NCBI GenBank assembly: GCA_902590655.1 | Contig: CACIXQ010000004.1 | Location: forward strand, 1-53,875 | Direction: 5' to 3' | DNA length: 53,875 bases | DNA from: an uncultured marine group I thaumarchaeote | GTDB lineage: Archaea; Thermoproteota; Nitrososphaeria; Nitrososphaerales; Nitrosopumilaceae | Shown: in pieces, positions 16,903 to 20,554 of the stretch | Layout of the letters: every line of letters starts with the position of its first letter | How positions within the stretch are numbered: position 1 is the first letter of the stretch | The notes under the pieces: generated by a model | What the model was told of the DNA's origin: nothing | Databases searched by the model: none | Seen by the model: only the letters and a program-made list of their open reading frames with translations | Made by a program: the position numbers and the translations under genes

Positions 16903-17442
16903 TTGAAAGGCGAATTATTAGACAATAGAATAGTTGTTTGGAATATACAAGAATCTAGAAATCTTTTTGCTAGTGGTTATTTTGGTAAACCAATCGGTAT
17001 TCCAAAACCAAATGTAGATGAGATCAACGTTCCATTAATCTTAGATCTCATTGAAGGGTGTTATCTACAAGAAGTTTCAAAAATTAGGATCACTAAGGAT
17101 GGAAAAAATGTTTCATTAAATGCGTTGATTAGGATTTGTAGAAAAGAATATCATAATTTTGATAAGAAATACCAAGTCTACAAAGATTTTAGAGAAAAAG
17201 GTTATGTCATTAATCCAGGAATAAAATTTGGTTGTGACTTTGCTGTATATGAAAGAGGCCCAGGAATTGATCATGCGCCATTTTTAGTACAGGTTTACAA
17301 CAAAAGTGATGATATTTCTTCTACTGCAGTAGTATTGGCTGGTAGATTGGCTAGTAGTGTCAAGAAACAATTTATTTTGGCTATACCACGTAGTAAATCT
17401 AAAATTGATTATTTATCGCTAGATTGGTGGAGAGCTAATTAA
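16903..17442 (+). CDS. endA: tRNA-splicing endonuclease subunit EndA
   Basis: Cuts both strands of bulge-helix-bulge RNA motifs, releasing introns from pre-tRNA and processing pre-rRNA. The C-terminal catalytic domain shows the full triad: Tyr116 in FAVYERGPG, His124 in IDHAPFLV and Lys154 or Lys155 in SSVKKQFILAI. It also has the NPGIKFGCDF strand. At 179 residues it is the single-unit alpha type, which works as a homotetramer or with a beta subunit; which applies cannot be told from this window. TTG start 1 bp after the DUF47 stop. It matters here because a probable spliced intron interrupts carB at 39.8 kb. Its end overlaps the convergent gene by 8 bp. Confidence 0.94.
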   Translation: MKGELLDNRIVVWNIQESRNLFASGYFGKPIGIPKPNVDEINVPLILDLIEGCYLQEVSKIRITKDGKNVSLNALIRICRKEYHNFDKKYQVYKDFREKGYVINPGIKFGCDFAVYERGPGIDHAPFLVQVYNKSDDISSTAVVLAGRLASSVKKQFILAIPRSKSKIDYLSLDWWRAN

Positions 17443-17845
17443 TTTTCTTTATGTGGCCCGCAATATTGTTGTAAATATCAAACAATTCTTTTGTAATACC
17501 AAAATCATGGCTGTTTTTCCATTTTCCGTAAATACGTATTCCATTATTCGAAGGATCAACAAAAATTGTTGCGTCATTAACTGATTGGTTAGCAATCATT
17601 TCGTTTAATGATGAATCAGAATTTAGATCTTCTGCAAGTTTTCCCCCTTCCCATGTAACATCAACTACTTTTTTTGAACCGAAGTGACCAGTTGTTTTTA
17701 ATTTTGTTCTTGCAACACGACGTAGACGCCATGATTCTGATTCTTTACCTGATGATAATTCCTTATCAGGAAATTGTTGCACAATAAAATGTGCTTGAAA
17801 CCTATCCTGAGCGCCCCATGGAAGTGGATTTGGATCTTGCATCAT
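17435..17845 (-). CDS. hypothetical protein paired with the preceding small gene
   Basis: A 136-residue soluble protein I do not recognise. It starts with two Met codons (MMQDP), is Trp-rich (PWGAQDRF, ESWRLRRVAR, VTWEGGKL, YGKWKNSH) and shows strand-rich alternation compatible with a small beta barrel or beta sandwich. Its ATG overlaps the last base of the upstream stop (TAATG), so it is translationally coupled to the 111-residue protein encoded at 17845-18180. Neither has a signal peptide. The stop lies inside the end of endA. Confidence 0.75.
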   Translation of the reverse strand: MMQDPNPLPWGAQDRFQAHFIVQQFPDKELSSGKESESWRLRRVARTKLKTTGHFGSKKVVDVTWEGGKLAEDLNSDSSLNEMIANQSVNDATIFVDPSNNGIRIYGKWKNSHDFGITKELFDIYNNIAGHIKKIN

Positions 17846-18180
17846 TATCCCTTTTGTATTATCTGCACTGAATCTATGTTTGTGCCAGAAATTTTCAATG
17901 ACCCCTTATTGGTAATCATTCTTGTAGTCTGCGAGAAACATCTGCTATAGTAATCTCCCTTCTCAACATCACCTTCTCCTATTTTGTTAGGAGTTGAATT
18001 AACGCCAATCATGCTTAACATATCAGAAAATTTTTCAGGCCAATTTTTTAATACAATAGTTTCAGGTTCAGAATCTTCCATGGCGTATGTGATTTTGGCA
18101 CATAATTTAACATTTCTTGTTGTTCTGGATTGGTGATTAGCAACAAAATAAATAGATGAGGAACTAATTTTTGATCTCAT
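17845..18180 (-). CDS. hypothetical protein, first gene of a two-gene unit
   Basis: A protein of 111 residues from the ATG at 18180, or 78 residues from an internal ATG at 18081. The long form starts with a Ser-rich stretch and continues smoothly through VKLCAKITYAMEDSEPETIV, which favours the upstream start. Its start codon overlaps that of the divergent SDR gene by 2 bp (the sequence CATG at 18178-18181), leaving no intergenic promoter space. Downstream it couples to the Trp-rich protein. No domain recognised. Confidence 0.65.
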   Translation of the reverse strand: MRSKISSSSIYFVANHQSRTTRNVKLCAKITYAMEDSEPETIVLKNWPEKFSDMLSMIGVNSTPNKIGEGDVEKGDYYSRCFSQTTRMITNKGSLKISGTNIDSVQIIQKG

Positions 18181-19798
18181 GCTAAAGTTTCAAAATAAAA
18201 CTGTGCTAGTTACCGGGAGTGGTACAGGAATTGGGCAGGCAATTACGAAGAAATTTGTGGAAAATGGTGCAAGTGCCATAGTTCTAGGAAGAAGGAAAGA
18301 ACCATTGGAAGAAACTGCAAAAATGCTAGAAGATATTATCAAAGAAAAGCAAAGCCATGCCACCATCAAAATTTTTGATGGTGTAGATGTTAGTGATGAA
18401 AAAGCTGTCACTGGGATGTTTGATGCATTAAAAAATGAAAATGTCAACCTGGATGTTGTTGTAAATAATGCTGGGGTCTCGGGTCCTGTAACATGTTTTG
18501 CACATGCACCACTTGACCAATTTAGAAGTACTGTAGACATTCATCTAACTGGAACTTTTTGGACTTCAGTTCAAGCACTCAAAGTTATGAAAGAGGGAGC
18601 AAAAATTATTACAATTTCAACATTTTTTGCAGAAGAAAGACCACTGGAACAAAGACCATACAGATTCAGAGATCCATATACAGCATCACAGGGAGCAAAA
18701 AACAGGCTTGTGGAGGCAATGTCATGGGAACTAACAGAAAAGGGAATCATTTCAATCGGAACTAATCCTGGCCCAGTTCATTCAGACAGAATTTACAAGA
18801 CAGTTTACCCAAAGGCTGCATCAGAATTTCTACGTGTAAGCGGATTTGAAGACCTATCACCAAGTGAAGTTGAGGCTGCAAACAATGAGATTGTAGGATT
18901 GTTAGGGGAAGATGATGAAACCATAAAGTCTGGAATAAAAACAGCTGCAGAAAAGTTAGGCAAACCAGAAACTACACTTGCGAATTTACTGGATAAAGTC
19001 AAAAGCATTGCAGAAAAAATCCAAAAGAATACATCTACAATGATTCCCGATCAACAATTTTTATCACAGGAGCAGGTTGCTAGAACTGTTTTAACACTTG
19101 CGGACGATGACCAAGCAAAAATTCTCAACGGAAAAATAATTCCTGGTGACAGAGTTTTCTATCCTGTCAAATCACACATTAGAGCATCCGTTCCTAAATC
19201 TGAGAAAAATAACTTGGATGGAAAATCTGTTTACATTAGTGGTGATGAACAAAAAGTAAGTAATATTACCTCAATGATAGAAAAGAAAGGGGGACAAGTT
19301 ACATCATCGCAAGAATCAAAAAATGATTTATTCATTCATTTAACTGGTAATGTTCCTAACTTTTCTAAATTAACCGAACTGTCAAGAAATGAATGGGACA
19401 AATTAGTTGATAAGTTCGTCAATACACCAGCTGCATTCATTCAAAATTCTGTTAATAAATTCGTCCCTGGTGGTTCTGATGATCCAAGATTGTTCAAAGA
19501 TGCAAAGGGAAGAATTGTTATAATTGGTCCTGACCTTCCAGCTGGTAAAAAAATTAGTGGGCATGAAAGAGCAAAAGTTGAAGTTTTCAGAGGTGCACTC
19601 AGACCATTTGCTACCACTGTCAATCAAGAATTCAGTGATGTATTGAAATCGGACGTTAGATCATTCTTAATTTTGCCTGGAACTGTTGATGGAAAAGAAC
19701 CTAGTGATGAAAATATTGTAAATACAATTAACTACTTGGTGTCTGAAGAATCACAGTCAAGTTCTGAAGTAATTTTCTGTCCAGATGAAACAAGATAA
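18179..19798 (+). CDS. two-domain short-chain dehydrogenase/reductase, malonyl-CoA reductase-like layout
   Basis: A 539-residue protein of two SDR (Rossmann) units. Unit 1 (about 5-320) has TGSGTGIG at 12-19, NNAG at 96-99, Ser147 and Tyr167, and a long helical insert (about 205-300) after NPGPVHSDR. The usual catalytic lysine four residues after Tyr is Gln171 (codon CAG at 18689). Unit 2 (about 343-530) is degenerate: a GDEQ stretch replaces the glycine loop and no Tyr-x3-Lys is seen. From memory, this order, the PGP-x2-SDR segment and the degenerate second unit match one half of the Chloroflexus bifunctional malonyl-CoA reductase. That step of the thaumarchaeal carbon cycle has had no agreed enzyme, so the match is worth testing. 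An inactive or binding role is also possible. Confidence 0.75.
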   Translation: MLKFQNKTVLVTGSGTGIGQAITKKFVENGASAIVLGRRKEPLEETAKMLEDIIKEKQSHATIKIFDGVDVSDEKAVTGMFDALKNENVNLDVVVNNAGVSGPVTCFAHAPLDQFRSTVDIHLTGTFWTSVQALKVMKEGAKIITISTFFAEERPLEQRPYRFRDPYTASQGAKNRLVEAMSWELTEKGIISIGTNPGPVHSDRIYKTVYPKAASEFLRVSGFEDLSPSEVEAANNEIVGLLGEDDETIKSGIKTAAEKLGKPETTLANLLDKVKSIAEKIQKNTSTMIPDQQFLSQEQVARTVLTLADDDQAKILNGKIIPGDRVFYPVKSHIRASVPKSEKNNLDGKSVYISGDEQKVSNITSMIEKKGGQVTSSQESKNDLFIHLTGNVPNFSKLTELSRNEWDKLVDKFVNTPAAFIQNSVNKFVPGGSDDPRLFKDAKGRIVIIGPDLPAGKKISGHERAKVEVFRGALRPFATTVNQEFSDVLKSDVRSFLILPGTVDGKEPSDENIVNTINYLVSEESQSSSEVIFCPDETR

Positions 19799-20554
19799 TT
19801 AAAAAATACCTGTAGAATCTATAATCAGCTTAATTGCTGCTGCGACTAGCACAATTATTACTATAATCTTCAATTTGTTTTCCTTTATCTCAAGTGACAA
19901 TCGAGCACCTAAAATTCCTCCAGCAAATGCCCCAATCGATAACAACAATGCCTGATAGTAGTCAGGATGTCCTAGCATGGAATGCATAATCAACCCAGAG
20001 AAAGATGCAAACATCAAGATGAACTGTGAAGTTGGTGCAGCACGCTTCATTGAAATTCCAAGTGCAACTACCATCAATGGTACGAAGATTAAACCACCTC
20101 CAATACCAAATAAACTCGATATTATTCCTGCAAAGAAACTTGCGCCTGCTGAGAAAACAAGCAAGACAGTAGATACATCTACAGGTTTTTCCTCAATTTT
20201 CCTTTTAAGAAATATGTATGATGCTGAAGAAATGAGAACTAGTGCAAACAGAATTTTGAAAATATCTGGAGATATATCAGAAGATATGAATGCACCAAGT
20301 ATGGTACCAGGAACTGCCATTAATCCAAGTTTCCAACCAAGTGAAAGTTCTATGCGTTTTTGTCTAGCATACATGGTTGTTGACGCGACAGAATTACTAA
20401 ACACCGCAAATAGACTGTTACTTACAGCTAGTGTGGGAGAAAATCCCATGAATGTTAATACTGGGACGATGATTATGCCACCACCTAAACCAATTATTGA
20501 TCCTAACACTCCCGCAACAAATCCAAGCGGAATTAACCAAAGCTCTTCAATCAT
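19799..20554 (-). CDS. TauE/SafE family membrane transporter
   Basis: A 251-residue integral membrane protein with about eight hydrophobic helices arranged as an inverted duplication. The family signature occurs twice: GVLGSIIGLGGGIIIVPVL near residues 15-34 and SLFGIGGGLIFVPLMV near 145-160. Family members export sulphite, sulphoacetate or related organic acids; the substrate here is unknown. It is encoded 1 bp after the DUF192 protein and probably cotranscribed with it. Its stop abuts the end of the convergent SDR gene. Confidence 0.9.
   Translation of the reverse strand: MIEELWLIPLGFVAGVLGSIIGLGGGIIIVPVLTFMGFSPTLAVSNSLFAVFSNSVASTTMYARQKRIELSLGWKLGLMAVPGTILGAFISSDISPDIFKILFALVLISSASYIFLKRKIEEKPVDVSTVLLVFSAGASFFAGIISSLFGIGGGLIFVPLMVVALGISMKRAAPTSQFILMFASFSGLIMHSMLGHPDYYQALLLSIGAFAGGILGARLSLEIKENKLKIIVIIVLVAAAIKLIIDSTGIF

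Follow-up and report, generated by a model that had tools for sequence, protein, structure and literature searches.

Most known enzymes that convert CoA thioesters to aldehydes have ALDH or ASADH folds, the crenarchaeal malonyl/succinyl-CoA reductase belonging to the ASADH group; the C-terminal half of bacterial malonyl-CoA reductase (MCR) provides the SDR precedent. In the Roseiflexus enzyme, R616 and D651 of this half (MCR-C) bind NADP, S731, Y749 and K753 are catalytic, and Y743, R746, R785 and R799 serve the substrate and CoA, as does R1164 in the SDR4 domain (PMC10470521). A larger helical module suits the C-terminal half to malonyl-CoA and not to the semialdehyde (PMC10470521).

Ammonia-oxidising archaea (AOA) are among the most abundant autotrophs, and the gene for the first reduction of their CO2-fixation cycle is not agreed. 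The cycle is notably energy-efficient (PMC8287830). A passage in PMC6038301, citing Konneke 2014, gives the malonyl-CoA reductase gene of N. maritimus as not identified, though the activity is present in extracts; the succinic semialdehyde reductase and the acryloyl-CoA reductase are also without an assigned gene (PMC6038301). The thaumarchaeal malonyl-CoA reductase has been described as not findable by homology (PMC6964070), and in 2026 the thaumarchaeal variant of the cycle was defined without a marker for this enzyme (PMC12894919). These three papers concur with the initial annotation of the DNA analysed here, which held that the step lacks an agreed gene; they represent the openly accessible literature, and an earlier assignment is possible. 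Part of the idea of an MCR-like SDR has been voiced before, for the semialdehyde step: SDRs about 30% identical to Caur_2614, the Chloroflexus enzyme, were put forward as candidate malonic semialdehyde reductases in Nitrosocaldus (PMC5797428).

The window, by which we mean the whole 53,875-nt stretch of DNA that was analysed, comes from an ammonia-oxidising archaeon whose genome (0.91 Mb, 74% complete) contains amoA and an HpaB-family protein. An uninterrupted forward-strand frame with an ATG start encodes a tandem SDR protein of 539 residues, which on balance we take to be the malonyl-CoA reductase of the AOA 3-hydroxypropionate/4-hydroxybutyrate cycle, in a stand-alone form of SDR type. Its features, identified from the translation and the orthologues, are as follows.

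18179..19798, + strand: coding sequence of the tandem SDR protein, candidate malonyl-CoA reductase
18212..18235, + strand: NADP-binding glycine motif TGSGTGIG (residues 12-19), TG.GTGIG being invariant in 42 aligned orthologues
18290..18295, + strand: R38-R39 after strand beta-2, R38 aligning with R616 of MCR-C (PMC10470521)
18542..18544, + strand: His122 at the Asn position of the SDR tetrad, invariant in the orthologues
18620..18622, + strand: Thr148 at the catalytic Ser position (Ser731 of MCR-C, Thr165 of MCR-N)
18659..18679, + strand: Y161-x2-R164-x2-Y167, the MCR substrate motif in an extended active-site loop (Y743, R746 and Y749 of Roseiflexus MCR-C; PMC10470521)
18689..18691, + strand: Gln171 (CAG) replacing the SDR catalytic Lys, Gln in 81/81 orthologues
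18698..18700, + strand: Lys174, seven residues past the catalytic Tyr, invariant
18767..18796, + strand: PGPVHSDRIY (residues 197-206), R204 aligning with R785 of MCR-C, which binds CoA, and R215 of MCR-N (PMC10470521)
18785..19048, + strand: helical insert (about residues 203-290), from the secondary structure of the model and length comparison, comparable to the MCR-C extra domain
19211..19795, + strand: degenerate second SDR-like domain (about residues 345-539), shortened in the window lineage

Residues 1 to about 330 form an SDR (Pfam adh_short, E = 2.6e-32), within which the AlphaFold model places four helices between residues 203 and 287 as the insert. The domain that follows (about 345-539) is not recognised as an SDR by Pfam; AlphaFold folds it as a Rossmann-like SDR. 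The order that the initial annotation had described, an active SDR followed by a degenerate one, is therefore found, with the word active qualified because the Lys of YxxxK is Gln171, and the PGP-x2-SDR segment to which it had drawn attention is present as PGPVHSDR (197-204). Its helical insert resembling that of MCR-C is indeed helical and nearer in length to that of MCR-C, but shorter, with a median of about 97 residues in the orthologues against about 151 in MCR-C and about 46 in MCR-N; the insert sequence gave no confident alignment with the MCR extra domain. Matching overall lengths had also been claimed. Orthologues outside the window lineage have about 583-612 residues, close to the N-terminal half of MCR (about 570-580) and shorter than the C-terminal half (about 650), whereas those of the window lineage are trimmed to 536-564. 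The trimming lies in the second domain, which is about 45-50 residues shorter in the window (19211-19795) and at loci L001 and L004-L012 and is kept in orthologues elsewhere; such a loss fits a non-catalytic domain under erosion. HHalign ties this domain weakly to SDRs, at 88% to active SDR domains and at 47% and 40% to SDR4 and SDR2 of MCR, the last two values being too weak for its sequence to be used as evidence of kinship.

AlphaFold2 models were built with 42 orthologues for the window protein (pLDDT 88.4, pTM 0.89) and for the fuller orthologue L020 (pLDDT 90.0, pTM 0.90), whose second domain has a complete strand-helix alternation. The active-site loop (150-163) of the window-protein model has a pLDDT below 50. 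Comparison of predicted structure with the MCR structures, which the initial annotation had proposed as a check, returned MCR chains as all 25 of the top 25 Foldseek matches in the PDB for both models. For the window protein, the best match has an E-value of 2e-23 and TM-scores range from 0.65 to 0.75 by query length with both domains covered, while the next match that is not an MCR is an ordinary SDR covering one domain (E = 1.1e-14, TM 0.39); for L020, the corresponding E-values are 6e-25 and 1.6e-17. The tandem SDR of yeast-type MFE-2 (PDB code 2et6) aligned poorly over its whole length (TM 0.55-0.57, r.m.s.d. 16-18 Å). From the matches to MCR and the poor alignment of 2et6, we conclude that the two-domain arrangement is that of an MCR half.

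Sequence comparisons are less clear-cut. Over the whole chain, phmmer and profile searches of the PDB rank the full-length MCRs 8hi4 and 8hjw first, because both of their halves match; single domains score no better than ordinary SDRs (83.5 bits for MCR-C against 88.8 for 4iuy), and per-domain scores were for this reason rejected as proof of kinship. Best matches to ordinary SDRs outside the MCR family had been named as evidence against the annotation, and this is not what we find: whole-chain searches, structure and tree favour MCR, although the per-domain scores do not. Identity to MCR is about 16-24%. The trees drew on 80 bacterial MCR loci, from which 32 clean sequences were divided into halves, and on 41 cores of classical SDRs taken from genomes of archaea and bacteria. 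One branch separates the AOA family, MCR-N and MCR-C from the entire classical set (98/89, recovered in 97% of bootstraps), and this grouping is no longer supported once alignment columns in the active-site loop and the PGP segment are removed. Much of the signal therefore lies in the active site, where convergence is possible. Common descent with the MCR halves, apart from ordinary SDRs, is likely, though the sequences fall short of proof.

In the window protein, R38, D70, T148 (for Ser731), Y161, R164, Y167 and R204 match positions of MCR-C and are invariant in the alignment of 42 orthologues, and mutations of the MCR residues that match Y161, R164, Y167 and R204 reduce or abolish activity (PMC10470521). 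R38-R39 may confer a preference for NADPH. YxxRxxY is present in 81/81 orthologues and, in their own forms, in 31/32 MCR-C and 32/32 MCR-N sequences; at the positions of R164 and R204, each of the 22 MCR halves sampled carries Arg. The 41 classical SDRs include a single Arg at the R204 position, and at that of R164 Arg falls outside their six most frequent residues. HHalign placed no reliable counterparts of R799 and R1164 of MCR-C; R219 and conserved Arg in the second domain may correspond to them. The spacing between the catalytic Ser/Thr and Tyr is 19 in the AOA protein and 18 in MCR-C, whereas MCR-N and the majority of classical SDRs have 13. Loop spacing, insert and substrate residues together speak for the half that reduces acyl-CoA as the model of function.

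These same features bear on whether the protein could instead be a semialdehyde reductase of the alcohol-forming kind, like MCR-N, forming the hydroxy acid from the semialdehyde of malonate or succinate and not acting on acyl-CoA. The AOA clade lies beside MCR-N in the trees, although with weak support (87/59 and 92/41), and an AU test of MCR-N against MCR-C as the nearest partner prefers neither (p = 0.485), so a specific placement with either half was given up. PGPVHSDRI resembles the PGPI[DE]S[DE]RI of MCR-N, the proposal for Nitrosocaldus (PMC5797428) concerned SDRs in the semialdehyde step, and succinic semialdehyde reductase also lacks an assigned gene (PMC6038301). Whether the AOA possess another enzyme for this step varies: AOA families f1 and f8 have an Fe-ADH of the Nmar_1110 type, and no frame of this type (about 320 residues, malonic semialdehyde reductase) was seen in the amoA-positive genomes G037 and G053 (f2) and G038 (f3), a pattern that agrees with PMC5797428 for Nitrosocaldus and leaves f2 and f3 in need of some semialdehyde reductase. 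In N. maritimus, however, malonic semialdehyde reductase is already assigned to Nmar_1110, and both the spacing of the loop and the insert are more like those of MCR-C. We consider an enzyme of the MCR-N kind unlikely.

The main departure from MCR is the lysine of the YxxxK motif, which is replaced by Gln171 in 81/81 orthologues and is Lys in every MCR half and in 41/41 classical SDRs sampled. In Roseiflexus MCR this lysine (K753 / K182) is essential, and changing it to alanine in K753A abolishes activity (PMC10470521); the AOA protein lacks it. Since this lysine is replaced and a single half is present, we do not file the protein as a strict member of the MCR family. The joint loss of Asn and Lys was considered as a signature and lost weight, His being found at the Asn position with the Lys kept in 2/41 classical SDRs and also in 2et6. 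An NADPH-binding SDR that has died catalytically and serves as a sensor or scaffold would account for the lost lysine and the degenerate second domain; nevertheless, all AOA, including those with 0.8-Mb genomes, share an unvarying Tyr and Thr, the same NADPH motifs and a substrate loop conserved throughout, and the strict invariance of Gln171 favours function over decay, which makes such a role improbable. An invariant lysine, Lys174, lies about one helical turn beyond Gln171 and is a possible stand-in for the missing one. The invariant spacing Y167-x6-K174 is also that of FabI, and acryloyl-CoA reductase is likewise without an assigned gene (PMC6038301), but an enoyl reductase of FabI type acting on acryloyl-CoA is very improbable: TGxxxGIG is a glycine motif of the classical type, the helix register places Gln171 and not Lys174 at the Lys position, and the fold matches MCR.

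We searched one set of 300 genomes from the order both for amoA (PF12942) and for the SDR protein. They occur in 190 and 202 genomes, respectively; by hand count, both are found in 183, amoA only in 7, the SDR only in 19 and neither in 91. The 19 genomes with the SDR only are drafts, all within the amoA-bearing families f1 and f8. Absence from most ammonia oxidisers, which had been named as evidence against the annotation, is not what we see, with the gene in 183/190 amoA-positive genomes. Co-occurrence is strong (Fisher p = 1.5e-48, genomes counted as independent despite their shared descent). A family profile run against 300 genomes from the phylum matched 50, all in ammonia-oxidiser families, and none of the sampled genomes outside these families. 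Across the sampled genomes of order and phylum, the gene is present in AOA and absent from relatives that lack amoA, and it is retained in two 0.8-Mb genomes (G034, G284). Because amoA, the cycle and the SDR gene may all mark one clade, the co-occurrence singles out no function. HpaB-family proteins, possibly 4-hydroxybutyryl-CoA dehydratases, are distributed more widely, in families f9, f10 and f12 of the order, where neither amoA nor the SDR gene was found.

Could malonyl-CoA be reduced by another protein, for instance a promiscuous aspartate-semialdehyde dehydrogenase, with the SDR carrying out some other AOA-specific reduction? The crenarchaeal enzyme is ASADH-like, and each of 12 AOA genomes tested encodes exactly two proteins of the ASADH-type family PF02774. 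These two, however, would be taken up by aspartate-semialdehyde dehydrogenase and LysY/ArgC, with none to spare, and the substrate residues of MCR are invariant in the SDR; we likewise think this unlikely. The ALDH superfamily (PF00171) is not represented in four of the 12 genomes (G025, G031, G034, G284). These four are amoA-positive, and two of them are single-contig assemblies of 99% completeness. With no spare enzyme of a usual fold common to all 12, the SDR is the best candidate of a precedented fold.

No recognised gene of the cycle lies beside the SDR gene; its neighbours (a DNA ligase, a PhoU-like protein, a tRNA endonuclease and a TauE permease) are all unrelated to the cycle and were set aside as functional clues. 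Two small genes without Pfam match (17435-17845 and 17845-18180, both - strand) lie between the tRNA endonuclease and the SDR, and frames like that at 17435-17845 (IPWGALPYYQ.HFIV) also adjoin the SDR in L035 and L037. The TauE/SafE permease gene (19799-20554, - strand) adjoins the SDR gene, and so do similar frames in L033, L036 and L038.

The initial reading of the protein as the counterpart of an MCR half is supported in part: it gains from fold, residues, distribution and elimination, and is tempered by the replaced lysine, the dependence of the grouping on the active site and the low identity. The protein probably works like MCR-C, as a NADPH-dependent, single unit resembling an MCR half with a rewired active site. 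NADPH would bind to the first SDR through TGxxxGIG, R38 and D70, and the malonyl carboxylate and thioester would be held by Y161, R164, Y167, R204 and the helical insert. Hydride transfer to the thioester carbon would be followed by departure of CoA and release of malonate semialdehyde, which would pass to a separate reductase, an Fe-ADH of the Nmar_1110 type in those AOA that have one. The invariant H122, Q171 and K174 may replace the usual Lys of the proton relay, and the second domain would be a non-catalytic pseudo-SDR that completes the pocket, like SDR4 in the bacterial C-terminal half. Succinyl-CoA may also be reduced by the same protein. A bolder version, in which one SDR reduces both malonyl-CoA and succinyl-CoA through an H122/Q171/K174 site lacking the SDR Lys and represents a third, single-unit branch of MCR-type tandem SDRs, is possible but doubtful. 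As the candidate is nearly universal and single-copy, the question is open to testing with one purified protein, and the gene might serve as a pathway marker. It also bears on how the cycle came about separately from its crenarchaeal counterpart, and would provide an SDR acyl-CoA reductase that lacks the usual catalytic Lys.

Among known systems, classical SDRs such as FabG and glucose dehydrogenase, and yeast MFE-2, share the Rossmann SDR core, and 2et6 also has tandem domains; they are without the YxxR before the catalytic Tyr, the Arg of PGP..R and the insert of the AOA protein. The crenarchaeal ASADH-like reductase serves, in the crenarchaeal cycle, the reaction proposed for the AOA SDR, with a fold unrelated to it, and the 12 AOA genomes hold no PF02774 protein beyond two each. 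MCR-N (SDR1-SDR2; PDB codes 8aew, 8hi6, 6k8v) resembles the AOA protein as a tandem of SDR and pseudo-SDR with Thr at the Ser position, YxxRxxY, PGPxxSxRI and a similar overall length, and differs in its loop of 13, its insert of about 46 residues, its retained YxxxK and its alcohol-forming activity. MCR-C (SDR3-ED-SDR4; PDB codes 6k8s, 8hi5, 8a30, 8j29), like the AOA protein, combines an SDR, a helical insert and a degenerate SDR; counterparts of R616, D651, Y743, R746, Y749 and R785 are present, its loop spacing is 18 against 19, and it is among the top structural matches. Its Lys753, tetrad Asn and Ser731 are Gln, His and Thr in the AOA protein, its insert is longer (about 151 against about 97 residues), identity is 16-24%, R799 and R1164 have no placed counterparts, and it is fused to its N-terminal half, while the AOA protein is a separate single half of 539-612 residues. 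The bacterial enzyme unites in two fused halves both steps to 3-hydroxypropionate, and the AOA protein corresponds to one of them.
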